DNA of 32,693 nt from a virus. The notes below the pieces were generated by a model, which was given only the letters and a program-made list of their open reading frames with translations, was not told the DNA's origin and did not search any database. Where the stretch lies: positions 1-32,693 of IMG/VR virus record IMGVR_UViG_3300037189_008829; one strand, written 5' to 3'. Numbering within the stretch: position 1 is the stretch's first letter; the number at the start of each line of letters is the position of its first letter. Of the stretch, positions 2,463 through 32,693 are shown one piece after another. Made by a program: the position numbers and the translations under genes.

Positions 2463-2874
2463 AAAATGTATAAAGTGTCAATCAGAGTTCCAACTAAAAT
2501 CAACAGATAAAGCATCTAACATATGTAGTAAATGTAAAACTGCATACCAAAGAGCATATGCAAGAAGAAAGGTAGCGGAACTGCCTGAAGAAGAAAGGTA
2601 TAAAGATTTGTATCCATATGGTGAAGGTATGAAATTAAGAAGATTTACTCAACTCAGACAAACATTAGATAAGATGCAAAGTAGAGAAGAATGGCAAACT
2701 TATTTTAAAGAAAGGTTAGAATATTTAGAAGAGAACGAAGCAGATTTATTAGTTTGGATATATGATAGAAGAGACCAGGAATCAAGAAAAGAAATAGATA
2801 GAATACCAAGAAAACAAAATAGTTATGAAGATACCCGAAGCACAAAACAAAACGATAAGTCTTGGTTTGATTGA
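2449..2874 (+). CDS. Zinc-ribbon protein
   Basis: A 141-aa protein starting at ATG 2449, overlapping the sigma-like gene by 14 bases. Residues 7-29 contain CxxC-16-CxxC (Cys-Ile-Lys-Cys and Cys-Ser-Lys-Cys), a classical zinc ribbon, followed by a basic stretch 'YQRAYARRK'. The rest is highly charged and helical, ending in a polar tail that overlaps the first methyltransferase by 50 bases. Such proteins usually bind nucleic acid or RNA polymerase. With the sigma-like gene directly upstream, a role in transcription or as an endonuclease cofactor is plausible, but no catalytic motif is visible. Confidence 0.7.
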   Translation: MNLDRKCIKCQSEFQLKSTDKASNICSKCKTAYQRAYARRKVAELPEEERYKDLYPYGEGMKLRRFTQLRQTLDKMQSREEWQTYFKERLEYLEENEADLLVWIYDRRDQESRKEIDRIPRKQNSYEDTRSTKQNDKSWFD

Positions 2875-3637
2875 ACCTTTATCTGTAATGTATTTTGACA
2901 AAAGTAATAATAAAAAATATTACTTTGATAAATCAGATTTAGATATAAAGCAATACAATGGTGGAATGAAGCCTGATGAGTATGGTGGTATCATTCGTTT
3001 AAGTGAATTCAATGCTCAACTATGTGAATGGATTGTAGAGTATTGGAGTAAAGAAGGAGATACAATCGTAGACCCATTTGCAGGTAGAGTAACAAGAGCA
3101 GCAGTAACTACTCATCTAAATAGAATCTATGAAGGTTATGAAATATCACCACAGACATACAATAGAAGTTTAGAACATTATCAGAAATGGAACATACCTG
3201 CTACTCTTCATTTAGGAGATGGTAGAAAAATGGACAATACAAAAAAAGAAACTGCTGATTTAATTATTACTTGTCCTCCTTACTTTAATTTAGAAAGGTA
3301 TGAGAGTGTAGAAGGACAGATAAGTGATAGGTTTAAGTATAGTGATTTCTTATATGATATAGATTTAACAATACGCAATTGTAAAAGAGTATTGAAGCAA
3401 GGTGGATACGGATGTTGGGTTGTAGGAGATTTTAGAAACTTTCATAGATGGGGTGGGTTATTATCATTCCATAGTGATTTAATAAAGATAATTAAAGATA
3501 ACGGATTACAACATTGGGATACAATCGTATTACCTTCTAAACCTTCTCCTATATTACACGCAGTTTTAAAATCAGCAAAGGCAAAACAATTCACTGCAAA
3601 GAAGCACGAATATCTAATAGTATTTAAAAAACAATAA
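2825..3637 (+). CDS. DNA methyltransferase, motif I before CPPY
   Basis: A 270-aa S-adenosylmethionine-dependent DNA methylase. The cofactor motif I is 'VDPFAG' at residues 82-87, followed by an acidic 'GYE' (about 104-106). The catalytic motif IV is 'CPPYF' at 150-154. Motif I ahead of motif IV differs from the two methyltransferases downstream, which have the reverse (beta) order. CPPY can occur in enzymes that methylate adenine N6 or cytosine N4. Motif I reads DPFAGRVTR, with Val where a Gly is usual. The start overlaps the zinc-ribbon gene by 50 bases. The next ATG in frame (residue 22) would remove only the variable N-terminus. No restriction nuclease is nearby, so this is probably an orphan enzyme used against host restriction. 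Confidence 0.9.
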   Translation: MKIPEAQNKTISLGLIEPLSVMYFDKSNNKKYYFDKSDLDIKQYNGGMKPDEYGGIIRLSEFNAQLCEWIVEYWSKEGDTIVDPFAGRVTRAAVTTHLNRIYEGYEISPQTYNRSLEHYQKWNIPATLHLGDGRKMDNTKKETADLIITCPPYFNLERYESVEGQISDRFKYSDFLYDIDLTIRNCKRVLKQGGYGCWVVGDFRNFHRWGGLLSFHSDLIKIIKDNGLQHWDTIVLPSKPSPILHAVLKSAKAKQFTAKKHEYLIVFKKQ

Positions 3638-3638
3638 T

Positions 3639-4964
3639 ATGACAACACAAAATCCTGGTTTGATTAAAGAAACCACACTCCTATTAGGAGATTGTTTAGA
3701 TAAATTAAAAGAGCTAGACGATAATAGTATAGATAGTATAGTATCAGACCCACCATACGGATTGGCATTTATGGGTAAGAAATGGGATTACGATGTTCCT
3801 TCACAAGAAATATGGAAAGAGTGTATTAGGGTATTAAAGCCAGGTGGACACCTATTATCTTTTGCAGGTAGTAGAACTTATCACCGAATGGCAGTAAGGA
3901 TTGAGGATGCAGGATTTGAGATTAGAGACCAGATTATGTGGATATATGGTAGTGGGTTTCCCAAATCCCACAACATCGGTAAGAGTATAGATAAGAAAGA
4001 AGGTAATGAAAGAGAGGTTGTTGGTATTAAAAAAAATCAAGGTGATATTCGTGGAAAAAATGGATTGAGTGGAGAAATACAAGCTAGTAGACCATATATA
4101 GATACTGAAATAACCAAAGGCAATAGTGAATGGGAAGGTTGGGGAACTGCTCTCAAACCTGCACACGAACCAATCGTTATGGCAAGGAAACCATTAGTTG
4201 GAACAGTTGCGAATAATGTATTAGAGTGGGGAGTAGGTGGTATAAACATAGATGGTTGTAGAATTGAAACAGATTGGAAAGCAGAAAGACCAGAGAGTTG
4301 GTTTAATAGTGGTAAATCTATAAGTGGAGAACCTACATATGGTGGTAATCTAAAAACTTTAACTGAAACAACATTAGGAGAAAGATTAAATGAAGGAGGT
4401 AGATTCCCAGCAAACATTATATTAGATGAAGAAGCAGGTAGGATATTAGACGAACAAAGTGGACTATCTAAATCAACAAATGCTATTAGAAAGAATAATC
4501 AAGCACAACACACAGGAGCTGAAAATGGTGCAACTTGTTATGGTAAATATAATAGTGTAGATACAGCTGGATATGATGATAAAGGTGGAGCAAGTAGGTT
4601 CTTCTATTGTCCCAAAGCAAATAAGACAGACAGAAACGAAGGTTGTGATTCATTAGAAGATAAAGGATATAGTATAAACCAAGCACATAACTCTAAAACA
4701 TTAGAAGAAAGATATGCATTAAAATCAAAGAATAACCACCCAACGGTAAAACCGACAGACCTAATGCAATACTTAATTCGTTTGGTAACACCCAAAGGAG
4801 GAATAGTATTAGACCCTTTTATGGGTAGTGGTTCGACAGGAAAAGCAGCAATCAAAGAAGGAATGATATTCGTAGGTATTGAAAGAGAAGATGAATACTA
4901 CCAAATAGCAAAACAAAGAATAGAATGGGAAGTAAGTAAGAAGCCTAACAATAAGTTTTGGTAA
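3639..4964 (+). CDS. Beta-class DNA N6-adenine methyltransferase (DPPY)
   Basis: A 441-aa enzyme with the beta-class order. Catalytic 'SDPPY' is at residues 36-40 near the N-terminus, after 'LGDCLDKLKEL'. The S-adenosylmethionine motif 'DPFMGSGSTG' is at 392-401 near the C-terminus. DPPY is typical of adenine-N6 methylation. The region of about 250 residues between the catalytic core and motif I is long and would hold the target-recognition domain; it includes a 'FFYCPKANKTDR' segment. It starts one base after the first methyltransferase and ends 'NNKFW', close to the 'NDKFW' end of the next gene. It probably protects phage DNA from host restriction; the target site cannot be read from the sequence. 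Confidence 0.92.
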   Translation: MTTQNPGLIKETTLLLGDCLDKLKELDDNSIDSIVSDPPYGLAFMGKKWDYDVPSQEIWKECIRVLKPGGHLLSFAGSRTYHRMAVRIEDAGFEIRDQIMWIYGSGFPKSHNIGKSIDKKEGNEREVVGIKKNQGDIRGKNGLSGEIQASRPYIDTEITKGNSEWEGWGTALKPAHEPIVMARKPLVGTVANNVLEWGVGGINIDGCRIETDWKAERPESWFNSGKSISGEPTYGGNLKTLTETTLGERLNEGGRFPANIILDEEAGRILDEQSGLSKSTNAIRKNNQAQHTGAENGATCYGKYNSVDTAGYDDKGGASRFFYCPKANKTDRNEGCDSLEDKGYSINQAHNSKTLEERYALKSKNNHPTVKPTDLMQYLIRLVTPKGGIVLDPFMGSGSTGKAAIKEGMIFVGIEREDEYYQIAKQRIEWEVSKKPNNKFW

Positions 4965-4965
4965 T

Positions 4966-5676
4966 ATGATATACAACGGAGATTGTTTAGAAGAATTAAA
5001 AAAGATAGATAGTAACACCATAGATTTGGTTGTTACATCTCCACCATATAATAAAAACTATTGGACAAGAAACAAAGAGCAAGGTAGTTTTAAGAGAGTT
5101 ATAAAATATGATAGTATAACAGATAGTTTAGACCCAAAAGAATACATCCAACAACAAACGGAAGTATTAAACGAATTGGTAAGAGTAATTAAACCAACTG
5201 GCTCTATATTCTACAACCATATAGACATACTACATAAACACAATACAATACATCCATCGTATGTGTATAACTTTAATGTAAAACAAGTTATAGTATGGGA
5301 TAGAGGCAATACACCTAAATTATCAAATACCTACTTTCTACCTACAACCGAATGGGTGTTTTGGATTAAAAAGGATTGGAATGCAGTTCCTTACTTTGAC
5401 AAATCTAAATGTGAGCATAAGAAAAACATATGGAGAATAAATAAAGAAAAAGACCAATCACATCCAGCACCATTTCCAATTGAATTAGTAAATAACATAG
5501 TAAATTCGTGTAGTGAAAAAGGTTCGGTTGTATTAGATTGTTATATGGGTTCAGGTACTACCGCAGTTAGTTGTAAGCAATTAAATAGAAATTTTATTGG
5601 TATTGAGATAAGTAAGGAGTATATAGAGATGACAAACAAACGATTAAATAGGGTAGCTAATGATAAGTTTTGGTAG
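4966..5676 (+). CDS. Beta-class DNA methyltransferase (SPPY)
   Basis: A 236-aa compact beta-class enzyme. The catalytic motif 'TSPPYN' is at residues 24-29 and motif I 'DCYMGSGTTA' at 191-200. SPPY is common in cytosine-N4 methyltransferases but also occurs in some adenine-N6 enzymes, so the modified base is uncertain. It starts one base after the preceding methyltransferase. The last codons (AAG TTT TGG TAG) contain TTTTGG at 5668-5673, which doubles as the upstream box of the packaging promoter. With the two genes before it, it makes a three-methylase operon without a partner nuclease. Confidence 0.92.
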   Translation: MIYNGDCLEELKKIDSNTIDLVVTSPPYNKNYWTRNKEQGSFKRVIKYDSITDSLDPKEYIQQQTEVLNELVRVIKPTGSIFYNHIDILHKHNTIHPSYVYNFNVKQVIVWDRGNTPKLSNTYFLPTTEWVFWIKKDWNAVPYFDKSKCEHKKNIWRINKEKDQSHPAPFPIELVNNIVNSCSEKGSVVLDCYMGSGTTAVSCKQLNRNFIGIEISKEYIEMTNKRLNRVANDKFW

Positions 5677-18950: not shown

Positions 18951-21064
18951 TGGGTATTATATCTACACAAGGGTTTGTATTTAAGTTAATAGCAAATGGA
19001 CAACAGTTAGACCTATTTAAGGATGAACAAATTCTTTTATCAGATAACGTAACTGGTTTATTTGATTTAGGAGTTCTTCCTGCTGACTTTACACGCCAAA
19101 TAACAATACCTGGTTCAAAAGTTAATAATGCTTTCTTTGAGCATTGCTACGATATATCAATTCAATCACCATTTTTATTTAAATCAAACGTTAAAGTTCC
19201 AGCATACTTTGATTTTGGTGGTATATACCTTGCTAACGGATACTTACAATTAAATAAAGTAAATGTAATAGCAAATAAGTTTATTGATTCATACGAAGTA
19301 ACTATTTATGGTGGTTTATCTTCATTTGCTAGAGAAGTTAATAGAAGTTTCTTAACTGATTTAACCAGTTCGTTAGCACAATACAATCATACTGCATCTT
19401 TAAGTAATATATCTTCATCTTGGAATGGAGAATTGTTTAGTGGTAGTATAGTTTATCCAATGGCTGAATATGGACAAGAGATTGTTTATAATCCTTCAGT
19501 TGCAAACTATGGTATTGATGAACCGTCTGGTTCTTTATGTGTGCAAGATTATAAACCTGCTATTAGAGTAAAAGCAGTATGGGATGCAATTTTTGATACA
19601 TACGGATACACTTATTCATCTTCATTCTTTGAACAGAAGTGGTTAGATAATGTGTATATGATTTGTAATAACAAATTACGTTATCCAATAATGGAGAACA
19701 TAGATTTAGAAACCTATGGTTTATTTAGAATATCTCCTATTTCAGGTAGTGGTGGAACAAATGTAACTGCAAGTGTAGCTACTTTAGTTCCTTTAGATTG
19801 GTATAATATAGAAGCAAACCCTAATGGTAATTTAAGTTCATCTTTATCTTATACAACTGATTTCAGTTCATCTATTAGAGGTGAGATTAAATTAGATTTT
19901 GAAGTTAAACCACTTGCGGCAACTAACAATATGCCACAATTTGCATTAATAGTTTTAAGTGATGATGGGTTTAGTATAGTAGAATCATCTACAAACCTAA
20001 CTGCAATTAATGATTATATGAAAGAAGTTCAGACATATAATAATGGAACTACTAGAACTCAAAGATTTACTTTAACAAACCAATTCCAAACTCAAATATT
20101 ACCACCTGGTAATCATAGATTTTATTTATATTGGGTTGGTACTCCTTCAAATACAAACTTACAAGTAACTTTAAATCCACAGAATAGTGTATCATCTTAT
20201 TTGGAAATACAAAAAGTAAATCAAGGTGGAGATGGACAGATAATGGATATTGCATCTAACATGCCATTTGGTACTGTTGGTATAAAATTAATTGATTTTA
20301 TTTCATCATTGCAGAAAAAGTTTAATTTAGTAATATATCCTAACAAATTACGTCCAAAAGAGTTTATAGTTGAAACATTTAATACTTGGTATAAAATGGG
20401 ACAAGTAAAGAACTTTAACAGATACATTAATTTAGATAAAAATATTGCAGTAACTCTTGTAAATAACCTTGCAGTAAATAAGTTAAACTTTGGAGATACT
20501 TTAGATGGTGATTATGTTTCACAACAATTTAGTAAAGGAGCAGGTAGAGAATTTGGTAAATCTTATTATGTTGATACAGAAAATTACTTTTCACAAGGTG
20601 AGTTTAATGTTAAAACTAATTTTGCTTCATCTCCATTAGTTTATCTAAATGGAACTGGTACATCAGGTTCTACTAATATAAATCAAGCAGGATTTAGAGC
20701 AGGTGCAATTACTCAAACTAAAACATCGCCAGGTGGACTTTCTGAATCATTCTTACAAGTTCAAACAAACTATGTAGCAATTGCAGCAGCAGGTGTTAGT
20801 TCTCCATATACGGATGTATTTGATTTTGACCCAAATATATTAGGATACAATTATAGAAGTGTTACAATTGGAAATGATATAGTATTTACATCAGTTGCAA
20901 GTGGAACAACATATCAAACTGCACAACTAATAAAGACAACTGATAGCGGAAGTGTTAATCTATATAGTGGTAGTGCAAATACTACTTACACTTATACTTT
21001 AACTGCAAGTGATATGTCATCATCGGTATTGAATTTTATAGCACAAACTAGCGCAAGAGATTAA
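18950..21064 (+). CDS. Tail hub or baseplate-like protein
   Basis: A 704-aa protein with ATG 18950 overlapping the stop of the preceding gene. The N-terminus 'GFVFKLIANGQQLDLFKDEQILLSDNVTGLFDLGVLPADFTRQITIPGSKVNNAFFEHCYDI' (split over residues 8-70) is characteristic of tail-tip proteins in this phage group. The middle contains 'FQTQILPPGNHRFYLYWVG', a beta sandwich-like segment, and 'FISSLQKKFNLVIYPNKLRPKEFIVETF', like a tail hub domain that sits at the end of the tube. The C-terminus is Ser/Thr-rich. It would anchor the fibres made by the next two genes. No lysozyme motif is visible. Confidence 0.6.
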   Translation: MGIISTQGFVFKLIANGQQLDLFKDEQILLSDNVTGLFDLGVLPADFTRQITIPGSKVNNAFFEHCYDISIQSPFLFKSNVKVPAYFDFGGIYLANGYLQLNKVNVIANKFIDSYEVTIYGGLSSFAREVNRSFLTDLTSSLAQYNHTASLSNISSSWNGELFSGSIVYPMAEYGQEIVYNPSVANYGIDEPSGSLCVQDYKPAIRVKAVWDAIFDTYGYTYSSSFFEQKWLDNVYMICNNKLRYPIMENIDLETYGLFRISPISGSGGTNVTASVATLVPLDWYNIEANPNGNLSSSLSYTTDFSSSIRGEIKLDFEVKPLAATNNMPQFALIVLSDDGFSIVESSTNLTAINDYMKEVQTYNNGTTRTQRFTLTNQFQTQILPPGNHRFYLYWVGTPSNTNLQVTLNPQNSVSSYLEIQKVNQGGDGQIMDIASNMPFGTVGIKLIDFISSLQKKFNLVIYPNKLRPKEFIVETFNTWYKMGQVKNFNRYINLDKNIAVTLVNNLAVNKLNFGDTLDGDYVSQQFSKGAGREFGKSYYVDTENYFSQGEFNVKTNFASSPLVYLNGTGTSGSTNINQAGFRAGAITQTKTSPGGLSESFLQVQTNYVAIAAAGVSSPYTDVFDFDPNILGYNYRSVTIGNDIVFTSVASGTTYQTAQLIKTTDSGSVNLYSGSANTTYTYTLTASDMSSSVLNFIAQTSARD

Positions 21065-24000
21065 TGGCAAATAACAAAATATTTATTCCTACATTCATAA
21101 GCAGTATTGATTACAAACCTGCTCGTGTCTTGCCGCATATTTATTTTTACAACGGAACTAAACAAACTGATACATATTTTATAGAAGGATTCCAAAATGG
21201 TTCAACATCTTCAATAGAACAAAGAGCATTTAATGCCTTTCCATATTTTGATAATTATAGTGGGAATACACCTGATTCATCTTCATTATCTCTTTTATTT
21301 AATAACGAACCCGCTGCATATGGTACTGCACCTTCAGCATCTTTATACTCTACATATTGGGAAAGATATGTAAATTTATTATATAATCCTCAAACTCGTT
21401 TGTTAGATTGTGAAGCAATTATACCTTTAGCAGATTATTTCCAAATGGAACTTAACGATATAGTTGAGTTCAGAGGAAACTATTATCACCTTCGTGCAAT
21501 AAATGATTATAACTTATCAACGGGTGAGTGTTCTTTACAATTATTAGGGCCAATTCTAAACGATGTAATATCAACTATTATACCTGAATTGGCTTGTGAT
21601 TTTGATTATACATTTGCGTTGACAAGTTCATTAACAACTACTACAACTACATCAGGTCCAACTACAACAACTAGTACTACGACGGGAGCACCTACTACTA
21701 CTACACTTGCACCTACTACTACTACTACACTTGCACCTACAACAACAACAACTACAATTGCTCCTACTACTACTACAACAGTTGCTCCTACAACGACAAC
21801 TACTACGTTATATACGGCAAATTGTTATAATTATACTTTCTTCTGTGCTGCGGGTGGAGGTTGTAATTATTATTATATAAATTGTGGTCAAACTATACAA
21901 ACATCTGGAAGTATGGCATTTAATACTTCATTTACTGTATGTGCTACAGATGGTGATAAAGGATTAACTGGTGGTGGTTCAACTATTACTTTAGGAAGTA
22001 GTTGCGTACCTTCTACTACAACAACTACTACAACCGCAGCACCAACAACTACAACAACAACATTAGTACCAACAACTACTACCACAACAATTGCTCCTAC
22101 TACAACTACTACTACAATAGCAGGAACAACTACTACGACTACATTTGGTTCAACTACTACAACCACTTTAGCAACAACTTGTTATTTGGCTAGTAGATAT
22201 ACTTGTGCAGGTGGTATATGTTTCTTTGCAGAACAAATAGTAGTAAGTAATGCAGGTTCAGTTCCTACTGGTAGTTATTATTATGACCCAACCGGTGGAT
22301 ACATATTCTTTGTAATTCAATCAGCAGCTTGTTCTGGTTCTGTATATAATACAACAATGACAGGAACAGGAAGTGCAGTTTGTGCTACATTCTGTCCTAC
22401 AACAACTACTACAACAACTGCAGCACCCACAACTACTACAACTACGGTAACTCCGACTTGTACAAATTATACAGTATATAACTCTAATTTATCAGTTGCA
22501 GGACAAGTAGATTATGTACCTTGCGGACATGTAGGATATAGAAGTCAATTTGTTGGACAAGGAGAAACAATTACATTATGTGTAAGTAATAGTCAAATTG
22601 TAAATTCAGTTGGATATTCATCATCATCATTAACAAATACATTTACAAATTGTACATCTTCATTAGTAGATTGTATTACTTATACTGTACAAAATACAGG
22701 TTCTATTCAATATACATTTAGTGGAAAAGATTGTGCAGATTGTACTACTAAATTATTTCCAATAAATGCAGGAGCAACTCTTGTAAAATGTTTAGTATCT
22801 GGAACATTCACTACTGCTTATACTTCATCTGTTGGTGCAACTGCGGGAGCAACTTGTAATGTAAGTGGAAGTGGTTGTCCTGTTGTATTACCAACAACAA
22901 CTACAACAACCGTAGCACCAACTACTACTACGACAACAACCGCAGCACCGACAACAACAACGACAGGAGCTCCAACAACCACGACTACTACAACGGCAGC
23001 TCCTACTACGACAACCACAGGAGCACCAACAACGACAACCACAGGAGCACCAACAACGACAACAACGGGAGCACCAACAACGACAACAACGGGAGCACCT
23101 ACTACAACTACAACAACGGCTTGTTATGGATTTAATTTAACTCCTGTTTATGATACAACTTGTGATGCAAGTGCGCCTGATGTTACTGCATACAAAAATA
23201 CCTCGGGTTCAATTGTAATAGGAGATACATTATATAATAGTTGTGGAGGCTCTACATTAGCAACTGGATTTTATTCAGATGGAACTTGGAGATATGTAGT
23301 TGTTGTTGGAGTAGTAACTGATAAAATTAGTTGCCCTGCTCCTACAACTACCACTACATCAACTACTACAACTACGGCAGCACCTACAACAACTACAACT
23401 ACGTTGGCATTCCAATCGTATGATTTGTATTATCCTTGCGGAACTACAACTCCTGCAAGTTTAAGAGCAATATATGATGGAACTCAATCACCTGGTAATA
23501 TTATAAAAGCATCTAATGGATTATGTTATACAGTTGTTGCTCCTACAACGGTTGGTGGTGCAAGTTTAACTATTGTAAGTGAGCATAGCAGTTGTGCTGA
23601 TTGTAATATAACTACAACTACAACTACAACTGCATCACCTACAACTACTACTACAACTACGGTAGCACCAACTACTACTACAACAACATTAACTGCACTA
23701 ATAGTAACTGGATATAATGATTGTGCAACTTATCCTTCTGCTTGTGATGGAGCAATTAACATTACAAATATTACAGGTGGTTCGGGTACAGGATACCAAA
23801 CAAGATTAAATGGAGGAAGTTGGAATAACTACCCTGCAACTAACGCATATACTGGTGTATGTGGTGGAACTACTTACACATTAGATGCAAGAGATTCTGT
23901 TGGAACATTTGAAACATCAGGACCATTTAATTTATGTTCTAACACAACTACTACCACATCTACAACAACTGCTTCTCCGTATTATTTCTATAATGCACAT

Positions 24001-24213
24001 AGAGGAATTTGTGTAACTGGTAACCCTTGTACATCTGCAAGTGATGTTGTAATTCGTTCATCAACACCATTGAGTAATGGTTCTTGGTATAGTGAGGGAA
24101 CATTCTCTTATCAACCATATGGTTCTACATCAGGCCCATCTTATACTTATGATGTAGATGGTGTTATATATACACAGGCTTCTGATTGTGAAACTGCTTG
24201 TACCAATTATTAA
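21064..24213 (+). CDS. Thr-rich, Cys-rich modular tail fibre protein ('beads on a string')
   Basis: A 1049-aa protein. Residues 1-185 form a non-repetitive virion-anchoring domain ('FIPTFISSIDYKPARVLPHIYFYNG', 'YWERYVNLLYNPQTRLLDCEAIIPLADYFQMELNDIVEF'). The rest alternates linkers made of runs of four to seven Thr broken by AAP, GAP or VAP with about seven different Cys-containing domains of 50-90 residues. The main linkers are at 21634-21807, 22015-22179 and 22894-23118. The linkers resemble mucin-type O-glycosylated stalks, and three glycosyltransferase genes follow 600 bases downstream. The beads share a style ('C-x-x-Y-T') but differ in sequence. Likely a host-binding or surface-adhering tail appendage. 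It overlaps the previous stop by one base. Confidence 0.8.
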   Translation: MANNKIFIPTFISSIDYKPARVLPHIYFYNGTKQTDTYFIEGFQNGSTSSIEQRAFNAFPYFDNYSGNTPDSSSLSLLFNNEPAAYGTAPSASLYSTYWERYVNLLYNPQTRLLDCEAIIPLADYFQMELNDIVEFRGNYYHLRAINDYNLSTGECSLQLLGPILNDVISTIIPELACDFDYTFALTSSLTTTTTTSGPTTTTSTTTGAPTTTTLAPTTTTTLAPTTTTTTIAPTTTTTVAPTTTTTTLYTANCYNYTFFCAAGGGCNYYYINCGQTIQTSGSMAFNTSFTVCATDGDKGLTGGGSTITLGSSCVPSTTTTTTTAAPTTTTTTLVPTTTTTTIAPTTTTTTIAGTTTTTTFGSTTTTTLATTCYLASRYTCAGGICFFAEQIVVSNAGSVPTGSYYYDPTGGYIFFVIQSAACSGSVYNTTMTGTGSAVCATFCPTTTTTTTAAPTTTTTTVTPTCTNYTVYNSNLSVAGQVDYVPCGHVGYRSQFVGQGETITLCVSNSQIVNSVGYSSSSLTNTFTNCTSSLVDCITYTVQNTGSIQYTFSGKDCADCTTKLFPINAGATLVKCLVSGTFTTAYTSSVGATAGATCNVSGSGCPVVLPTTTTTTVAPTTTTTTTAAPTTTTTGAPTTTTTTTAAPTTTTTGAPTTTTTGAPTTTTTGAPTTTTTGAPTTTTTTACYGFNLTPVYDTTCDASAPDVTAYKNTSGSIVIGDTLYNSCGGSTLATGFYSDGTWRYVVVVGVVTDKISCPAPTTTTTSTTTTTAAPTTTTTTLAFQSYDLYYPCGTTTPASLRAIYDGTQSPGNIIKASNGLCYTVVAPTTVGGASLTIVSEHSSCADCNITTTTTTTASPTTTTTTTVAPTTTTTTLTALIVTGYNDCATYPSACDGAINITNITGGSGTGYQTRLNGGSWNNYPATNAYTGVCGGTTYTLDARDSVGTFETSGPFNLCSNTTTTTSTTTASPYYFYNAHRGICVTGNPCTSASDVVIRSSTPLSNGSWYSEGTFSYQPYGSTSGPSYTYDVDGVIYTQASDCETACTNY
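21634..21807 (+). repeat. Thr-rich linker 1 of the fibre gene
   Basis: About 58 codons, nearly all Thr interrupted by GP, GAP, LAP, IAP and VAP. All four Thr codons are used in irregular order, which keeps the peptide repetitive while the DNA is less so. Confidence 0.9.
22015..22179 (+). repeat. Thr-rich linker 2 of the fibre gene
   Basis: About 55 codons of Thr runs broken by AAP, LVP, IAP, IAG and FGS. A shorter linker of the same kind follows at about 22399-22452. Confidence 0.9.
22894..23118 (+). repeat. Thr-rich linker 3, containing 24-bp tandem repeats
   Basis: About 75 codons of Thr5-7 with VAP, AAP or GAP. From 23020 the DNA becomes a near-perfect 24-bp tandem repeat (units at 23020, 23044, 23068 and 23092; peptide GAPTTTTT). 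Further short linkers lie at about 23341-23404 and 23611-23693. Confidence 0.92.
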
Positions 24214-24216
24214 GAT

Positions 24217-24786
24217 ATGGGAAATGTAACAATACAAATAACTTTAAGTGCTGACGGGGGTAAATCTGGTCCATTATACAATGCCTACTATTCTACTGAT
24301 TGCGTAAGTTATTCAGAGTTTAGTGGTAGTACTAATTTATATTTGCCTGATTTAGGTTCAACTGTTAATATAACAATACCTGATACTACCAAATGTATTA
24401 AGTTAATAAATTTGTCTGCAGGATGTAATGAAAATGAAATAATAAAAACATTAAACTTTACTACAACTACTACTACTGCTGCACCTGCTACAACCACAAC
24501 TACATATTCAGGTCCTCCTACTACTACAACCACAGGAGCACCTACTACAACTACTACAGGAGCACCAACAACAACTACAACTACAACAGTAGCTCCTACT
24601 TGTAGAACTTATACTTGGGCTTGTGATAATGAATACGGAGTACCTTGTACTTTAAGTTGGACAAACTGTGATGGAACTCCTGGTGGTGATTTCGTATCAA
24701 ATGGTTCAGGTGGTACTCAATGTGCTCAACAAGGAACATTTGGTATTACAAATGCAACTTATCCAACAGAAGGTGGAACGTGTTAG
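24217..24786 (+). CDS. Second Thr-linker fibre protein
   Basis: A 189-aa protein 3 bases after the large fibre gene. A beta-rich N-terminal domain (residues about 1-80, with Cys-Val-Ser-Tyr and Cys-Ile-Lys) is joined by a Thr linker (about 82-128, 'TTTTTGAP' units) to a C-terminal Cys-rich bead 'CRTYTWACDNEYGVPCTLSWTNCDGTPGG'. The C-terminal bead resembles the beads of the preceding protein, so the two are probably parts of the same appendage or products of duplication. No secretion signal. It ends before a small gap that contains a hairpin and then the glycosyltransferase genes. Confidence 0.7.
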   Translation: MGNVTIQITLSADGGKSGPLYNAYYSTDCVSYSEFSGSTNLYLPDLGSTVNITIPDTTKCIKLINLSAGCNENEIIKTLNFTTTTTTAAPATTTTTYSGPPTTTTTGAPTTTTTGAPTTTTTTTVAPTCRTYTWACDNEYGVPCTLSWTNCDGTPGGDFVSNGSGGTQCAQQGTFGITNATYPTEGGTC

Positions 24787-32046: not shown

Positions 32047-32081
32047 TGGTTTTGGAAAAAAAAACAATATATATACTAAAT
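32047..32081 (+). promoter_or_regulatory. Promoter P3, same 28-bp box as P1
   Basis: TTTTGG at 32050-32055 followed by an A9 tract. The first 28 bases (32047-32074) are identical to 508-535. Possible downstream boxes are TACTAAAT (32074-32081, spacing 18) or TATACTAA (32072-32079, spacing 16), so the transcription start is uncertain, at about 32082-32088. It would transcribe the structured leader and then the initiator gene. Confidence 0.6.
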
Positions 32082-32180
32082 GGAGTGTGAGATACTCTAT
32101 AAAGAAACTGAACGATATGTTCACCTCAACCCCAAACATAGTTGGTAATCTCACTACCGATTATGATTTGGGGTTTTTTA
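32081..32180 (+). ncRNA. Structured leader RNA with kissing-loop and terminator, before the initiator gene
   Basis: Three hairpins lie between promoter P3 and ATG 32191. H1: TGGAGT (32081-32086) pairs with ACTCTA (32094-32099), loop GTGAGAT (32087-32093). H2: TGAAC (32109-32113) pairs with GTTCA (32119-32123). H3: 32128-32147 pairs with 32155-32175 through about 20 bp with one bulge (A 32166), including CCCCAAA/TTTGGGG at its base, loop ATCTCAC (32148-32154), followed by T to 32179. H3 is a strong intrinsic terminator. The H1 and H3 loops are exact reverse complements over all 7 nt, so a kissing interaction is predicted. Inferred role: attenuation of the initiator gene or a terminated small RNA. 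Confidence 0.7.
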
Positions 32181-32190
32181 TTAAAGATAT

Positions 32191-32693
32191 ATGAAAGAAT
32201 TAAAAAGAAAGTTACTGAGTAAATCCATAGGAAAGAACTCCTACTGGTCTCTAAACAAACACTTAGTTAGAAAGATAGGTTTAGAATCAACACTTATCCT
32301 ACAACACATTATAGATTTACAGGAGGTGTTTAAGAAGAACGAGATATTCCAATCACAACCCAATATGGCTGAGGAATTAGGAATTACTGAATATGCGATA
32401 AAAACCAAAATAGTAGAGTTAACTAAGGGGGGTTATATAAATGTAATTAAAAAGGGAATACCATGCAAAAACTACTACTCCACCAATGATGATAAAATTA
32501 TAGATATTCTAGTCACCGAACTAGTGGATACGAAATCAACGGACTTGTTAGAGGTTGATAATACTAATGATGAACTCAACGGACTAGTGGATACGAAATC
32601 AACGGACAAGGTAATATCAAATCAACTGACTAGTGATATAGAAACACTACCCACTATTACTAATAATACAATAAAGAATACGACTAATAATAC
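32191..32693 (+). CDS. Replication initiator-like winged-helix protein, N-terminal part
   Basis: ATG 32191 opens a gene that runs off the window end and, through the 87-bp overlap, continues to 316 (243 aa in all). Residues about 30-97 form a winged helix-turn-helix: 'ESTLILQHIIDLQEVF', 'NMAEELGITEYAIKTKIVEL' (recognition helix) and 'GGYINVIKKGIPCKNYY' (wing). A polar Asn/Thr/Asp linker and a short C-terminal domain follow. Winged-helix N-terminus, disordered linker and small C-terminus, with repeats in the linker DNA, is the layout of lambda O-type initiators, which bind the origin inside their own gene and recruit a helicase loader. No helicase or polymerase is encoded, so host enzymes would be used. 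An alternative is a transcription regulator. Confidence 0.75.
   Translation, partial: MKELKRKLLSKSIGKNSYWSLNKHLVRKIGLESTLILQHIIDLQEVFKKNEIFQSQPNMAEELGITEYAIKTKIVELTKGGYINVIKKGIPCKNYYSTNDDKIIDILVTELVDTKSTDLLEVDNTNDELNGLVDTKSTDKVISNQLTSDIETLPTITNNTIKNTTNN
32511..32640. other. Iteron-like repeats inside the initiator gene, candidate origin
   Basis: Five related units of about 20 bp around the core TCAACGGACTAGTGGATA start, by their TCA, at 32513, 32536, 32576, 32599 and 32622 (spacing 23, 40, 23, 23). Two 24-bp segments, 32521-32544 and 32584-32607, are identical. The AT-rich stretch with a repeated 11-mer follows at 53-87 in circle coordinates. They fall in the disordered linker (residues about 107-150), so protein sequence constraint is low. 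Origin function is inferred by analogy to lambda. Confidence 0.6.
32607..32693. repeat. Right copy of 87-bp terminal direct repeat
   Basis: Identical to bases 1-87. It closes the circle at a unique length of 32606 bp and restores the initiator reading frame without a gap. Confidence 0.95.

Follow-up and report, generated by a model that had tools for sequence, protein, structure and literature searches.

A conserved leader RNA with mutually complementary hairpin loops ahead of replication-initiator genes in uncultivated phages

In the virus record analyzed here (IMGVR_UViG_3300037189_008829; 32,693 bases, hereafter the window), the replication-initiator gene is preceded by two hairpins whose apical loops are exact complements of each other. 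This arrangement raises two questions, namely, whether the loops pair in an RNA that is under selection and, if so, whether such a contact controls the gene behind it. Plasmids offer classic cases of RNA control over replication initiators; to our knowledge, such control is little known in phages apart from the P4/P1-type RNAs.

Anatomy of the leader in the window

The window carries an 87-bp terminal repeat (1-87 = 32607-32693) and is therefore probably circular, so that the gene starting at 32191 runs on at 1-316. The leader and its surroundings comprise the following features, all on the + strand:

32048-32074, +: 27-bp block GGTTTTGGAAAAAAAAACAATATATAT, with an exact second copy at 509-535
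32080-32100, +: hairpin H1, 7-bp stem (32080-32086/32094-32100) that covaries in relatives
32087-32093, +: kissing loop, 5' partner GTGAGAT, exact complement of 32148-32154
32109-32123, +: small linker hairpin H2 (TGAAC/GTTCA), seen by folding and in relatives
32128-32175, +: hairpin H3, 48 nt, 20 bp with one bulge, intrinsic-terminator-like; upper and lower stem covary
32148-32154, +: kissing loop, 3' partner ATCTCAC, exact complement of 32087-32093
32174-32179, +: T6 run, the expected 3' end of the transcript; T runs stand behind H3 in nearly all relatives
32191-32693, then 1-316, +: replication initiator gene (O-like/wHTH), assigned from PHROGs matches and the terminal repeat

The sequences and coordinates agree with the first-pass annotation, which had described an exact 7-nt complement that fills both loops and stays out of the stems; the match ends precisely at both loop edges, where the next opposed letters are T-T and A-A. 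For this reason, an alternative anti-terminator duplex was rejected. Folding of the 116-nt segment yields -37.4 kcal/mol (z = -5.65), and none of 200 shuffles did as well. Its unconstrained minimum-free-energy structure contains two weak extra pairs (U-A and G-U) within the H1 loop, both of which the kiss would need to open. By itself, GTGAGAT is no rarity, the window having 4 copies where 3.9 are expected. An element that unites a 7-mer loop complement with two stable hairpins and a T5+ tail is found once on the + strand, never on the - strand, and in none of 150 dinucleotide shuffles of the window. Compared with Rfam, the window has no hit that reaches the gathering score, and a 321-nt stretch has none at E <= 5.

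The promoter named P3 in the first-pass annotation could not be recognised in the window, which has no TTTG/TAnnTTTG pair there. The two copies of the 27-bp block, for which 0 copies are expected by chance and which occurs in none of the related loci, precede an HNH gene (509-535) and the leader RNA (32048-32074); the block is probably a phage-specific promoter or operator, at 32048 that of the leader RNA. Elsewhere, the window contains three consecutive DNA methyltransferase genes (N6_N4_Mtase; 2825-5676) and codes for two proteins (21064-24786) in which long repeats of the PTTTTT type take turns with Cys-rich stretches; these probably belong to the tail or are adhesins.

Relatives and compensatory change in the loops

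The initiator of the window has one near relative, L004 (72% identity), whose leader has a different sequence and forms two hairpins with loops complementary over 8 nt (GCTCTCAC/GTGAGAGC), the purine-rich loop sitting in the second hairpin. A sigma-factor-like protein encoded nearby (1893-2462) was used as the query to collect 80 related loci from IMG/VR, and a blind scan of these loci repeatedly found the same anatomy with other loops. This protein is conserved in related contigs, is without a counterpart in sequenced phage isolates at the cut-off applied, and is a possible phage transcription factor. After enlargement by covariance model, DNA pattern, and protein searches, the final set comprised 32 elements with 18 distinct hairpin cores, all from uncultivated phage contigs and with a single copy per genome wherever the element was found. 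All members have in common two hairpins with complementary loops approximately 60 nt apart, the second terminator-like, and then an ATG. Linker hairpin H2 occurs in the versions GAAC/GTTC, GGAA/TTCC, and GCAA/TTGC, and is absent from L004 and L031.

Nine different loop pairs were observed among the 32 elements, and every pair is fully complementary. The loops, each accompanied by its exact complement, are GTGAGAT, GTTGGAT, GTAGGAT, GTAGGAA, ATCTCAC, ATCGCAC, CCGTAAT, GGTCAG (6 nt, L051), and the 8-nt loop GCTCTCAC. Across 15 distinct elements, all 105 cells of the kissing helix (105/105) are paired, Watson-Crick throughout and without G-U, and the helix has undergone 29 two-sided changes over five of its seven positions and no one-sided change. 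Its covariation score is 0.776, compared with 0.219 after shuffling and at most 0.21 with the partner slid; the stems of H1 and H3 covary as well. Since the set had been found partly via complementarity, loop-blind tests were run. A DNA pattern consisting of the linker and H2 only gave 25 hits in IMG/VR, 24 of them elements and all 24 complementary, while a covariance model with both loops masked returned 30 hits at E < 0.001, all complementary, most of these 30 being also training sequences.

Closely similar elements document individual changes. L046 and L097 differ at exactly 2 of 98 positions, the mutually paired loop positions 10 and 73, where T.A has become A.T. L048 and L118/L119 have both stems in common, and GTGAGAT and ATCTCAC are swapped between H1 and H3. 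L099 differs from L118 at 14 of 98 positions, 10 of which are among the 14 loop letters. Such an exchange may arise when the loop inverts inside each palindromic stem, a process in which the contact survives only a flip of both hairpins. Thus, complementarity is preserved by compensatory change, as in kissing-loop RNAs, and the kissing loops proposed by the first-pass annotation are strongly supported, compensatory change having been looked for in relatives and found. Judged by this covariation, the loop-loop contact is real, approximately 30 related contigs keeping the match while the letters change on both sides.

The stems contain 26 G-U pairs on the + strand vs. 1 A-C, and in all cases compared (17/17) folding is better for the + strand than for its complement. 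In most lineages, the diverged L004 and L031 among them, a promoter of the form TTTG-N20-TAnnTT[T/A][G/C] is located 17-21 nt before H1; the form in relatives is TTTG-N20-TATATTTG, which in L008 lies 33 nt before H1. The excess of G-U over A-C and the upstream promoter place the RNA on the sense strand, with a start expected approximately 14-18 nt before H1 from the promoter position. TTTG/TAnnTTTG is the Bacteroidota sigma-A consensus, in which the -7 box spans -12 to -5 (PMC6847099, PMC9723704). The terminase is similar to those of Bacteroides and Flavobacterium phages, and from promoter type and terminase similarity together we infer Bacteroidota as the host phylum. By the measures of covariation and strand bias, the element is shown to be conserved and selected as a + strand RNA with three hairpins, and its loop-loop helix to be under pairing selection.

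The element is missing before the initiators of six related loci (L015, L016, L018, L021, L061, and L025) and is hence not essential to the phage group. It was not found by DNA search among isolates and plasmids (INPHARED, PLSDB), and a protein scan of bacterial genomes gave no relative. A loop-blind linker pattern had 22 chance matches and 0 elements in bacterial genomes. The 199 genomes of one Flavobacterium's family yielded no element in a scan of low sensitivity, with few candidates scored per genome.

The gene behind the leader and the proposed attenuation

As judged by profile matching, the downstream gene is consistently of the replication-initiator or replisome-organiser type, with several unrelated N-terminal families. 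It is O-like in the window (PHROGs replication initiation matches, E 1e-5 to 8e-5), Lin1244_N in L017, L051, and L105, DUF6291, itself a family of unknown function, in L005 and L048, a DnaA/DnaD-like replisome organiser in L043, phrog_4707 replication initiation in L068, and, by eye, a DUF1376-like protein in L124; the L023/L046 family has no profile match. The initiators look modular, with unrelated N-terminal DNA-binding domains on shared C-terminal segments (e.g., YGGFDN...GIFA) behind an unchanged leader, an observation made on the window (32191-316, across its ends), L005, L105, L115, L118, and L124. Iteron-like direct repeats ATACGAAATCAACGGAC are located inside the initiator gene of the window (32513-32544, 32576-32607, and 32599-32630), and similar repeats occur in that of L004; by analogy with lambda O, they perhaps mark an origin located inside this gene.

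Start codons are found 6-13 nt behind the T run (11 nt past T6 in the window, with the ATG at 32191; immediately in L031), leaving no space for another promoter, so that transcription of the gene has to pass through the element. We consider it probable, on comparative grounds, that the leader RNA of approximately 100 nt is a transcription attenuator of the replication initiator, in which the terminator loop is held by the kissing contact. The stable hairpin and U run typical of an intrinsic terminator or attenuator leader are present before the gene (H3, T6), and the order of parts, i.e., promoter, H1, predicted terminator, and an ATG within 13 nt in the elements measured, supports the earlier suggestion of an attenuator before the initiator. 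The loop-to-loop distance is 59-62 nt in all elements but L004 (55 nt), even where linkers are unrelated (L031, L051), a constancy that suits contact within one molecule. By a rough estimate, H1, the 7-bp kiss, and H3 stacked coaxially can just be spanned by the linker of approximately 28 nt; a contact in cis is therefore feasible and would explain the spacing. Counted against the attenuator are the atypical promoter of the window, the failure of a simple terminator scanner to list H3 (probably because of the bulge), the range of the initiator calls from weak to strong profile matches, and L031, in which the element precedes a 108-aa ORF of unknown function and the DUF6291 initiator-like gene comes next.

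According to the proposed mechanism, RNA polymerase would make H1 and then H3, whereupon the H1 loop would pair with all of the H3 loop in the same molecule, forming a coaxial helix of 7 bp, and the kiss would fix the terminator hairpin in one folded unit. Most transcripts would then stop at the T run, short of the start codon. The few read-through mRNAs would carry a very stable hairpin in the ribosome landing zone, approximately 20 nt from the start codon, and would be translated poorly; structure near the start codon lowers initiation in Flavobacterium (PMC6847099). Termination at H3, contact within one molecule, and low, tunable initiator synthesis as the outcome are what we infer for this leader. 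The released short RNA may, with less assurance, compete in trans and provide dose-dependent feedback. As loop pairing and terminator pairing are mutually compatible, the sequence by itself fits either raised or lowered termination.

Alternative readings and relation to known systems

The proposed attenuator has its closest functional counterpart in the CI RNA and seqA-seqB-seqC immunity of phage P4, with which it has in common a replication-operon leader, short complementary segments, and, as predicted here, premature termination. As in P4, the complementary segments lie within the leader transcript of a replication gene. P4, in which termination is Rho-dependent, uses a processed RNA directed at seqA and seqC; here, by contrast, both partners are apical loops of 6-8 nt, one of them capping a terminator of intrinsic type immediately ahead of the initiator's ATG. 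The CI RNA is derived from the leader, pairs with segments of the same transcript, and terminates transcription of the replication genes (PMC4825925).

This precedent favors a reading in which the terminated RNA is a regulator in trans, free copies kissing the loops of nascent leaders and raising termination. The result would be copy-number control or superinfection immunity with the loop sequence as the type, comparable to plasmid incompatibility and the P4 CI RNA. We regard such a role, in its copy-number form also proposed by the first-pass annotation, as possible but doubtful. Nine loop types exist, they change on otherwise identical elements, and the pairs are largely orthogonal (cognate pairs -6.6 to -12.6 kcal/mol, most non-cognate ones weaker than -4.2), which is what makes action in trans possible. 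Against it, the constant spacing of 59-62 nt is not required, no second copy is present in any genome searched, and the mean pair difference is 0.43 for the loops, 0.55 for H3, and 0.45 for H1. The loops being no more variable than the stems, there is no general sign of diversifying selection, and hypervariable loops were dropped as proof of specificity in trans. More tentatively still, the self-complementary loops may constitute a replaceable specificity code by which the released leader RNA recognises leaders of its own type in trans.

Several plasmid systems use related logic. In the attenuators of pT181 RepC and pIP501 RepR, a rep-leader terminator sets the initiator level and a counter-transcript is made from the opposite strand. 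The logic is the same here, but there is no conserved antisense promoter (within approximately 280 nt downstream, the minus strand has no TTTG/TAnnTTTG-like site that is conserved), so that the counter-transcript model does not apply and an antisense attenuator of this type was rejected. ColIb-P9/IncB and IncFII Inc/CopA employ loop-loop contact before the rep gene, with the loop sequence setting the type, and act on translation via antisense RNA, IncB/IncI also through an activator pseudoknot. Here, unlike in these plasmids, the partner loop belongs to the same transcript and lies in the terminator. The fully paired loops of ColE1 RNA I/RNA II (7 nt) and TAR-TAR* (6 nt) have the geometry found here (7 nt; 6 nt in L051) and pair between two RNAs.

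The element might instead be a free-standing RNA that, in the manner of phi29 pRNA or ROOL/GOLLD, assembles into a kissing dimer or ring, its position reflecting no more than synteny. Two mutually complementary loops per RNA would permit closed dimers or chains, ROOL, GOLLD, and phi29 pRNA likewise have kissing loops, and phage RNAs assembled in this way are known, the ROOL/GOLLD contacts being supported by covariation (PMC7357161, PMC12286853). GOLLD and ROOL are, however, far larger than this leader, and all three RNAs are multimeric and are not leaders of replication genes. As the start codon lies so close behind the terminator that the initiator must be read through the element, as the leader is retained before initiator-like genes of different families, and as the constant spacing fits a monomer, we consider self-assembly improbable.

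Slightly less credible is a riboswitch-like leader sensing a ligand or protein, in which the kiss only supports the fold and the factor binds the A-rich linker. Loop-loop contacts do support riboswitch folds, and one large subgroup has a well-conserved linker, AAAGATAAC..GGAAGAAATTCC..AAAAC. Yet L004 and L031 show no conservation of linker and H2, and the window, L017, and L051 retain them only loosely, with perfect loop pairing in all five, and the Rfam search stayed empty. It is very unlikely that the loops are inverted protein-binding DNA sites (operator or iteron) or the hairpins a cruciform origin: several loops have GTnnGA in common in one or the other orientation, but CCGTAAT and GGTCAG contain nothing of it, the iteron-like repeats lie elsewhere, inside the initiator gene, and the G-U bias indicates selection on a one-strand RNA. 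Unrelated loop sequences and strand bias thus led to the rejection of DNA sites. Chance complementarity in an ordinary terminator, refuted by the shuffles and the nine covarying loop pairs and left with nothing in its favor after the comparison, merits practically no credence.

RNA control of replication initiators is already known, and no description of the present architecture was found in literature covering few subscription journals. The first-pass statement that no phage RNA of this form had been described stands for the exact form, as far as searched, but had missed the P4 CI RNA as a close functional precedent. The contact between the loops probably controls the amount of starter protein made. 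Since the compact leader persists as unrelated families replace one another in the DNA-binding half of the initiator, the RNA looks like portable dosage control for phage replication. Natural loop variants on near-identical backbones (a single pair, a full exchange, a different length) make cis and trans action directly testable, as well as the effect of a terminator-loop contact on termination. If the specificity code were true, phages of different loop types would replicate independently in one cell and like types would limit each other, and the element would represent a new class of phage regulatory RNA and an RNA-based incompatibility system of phages.
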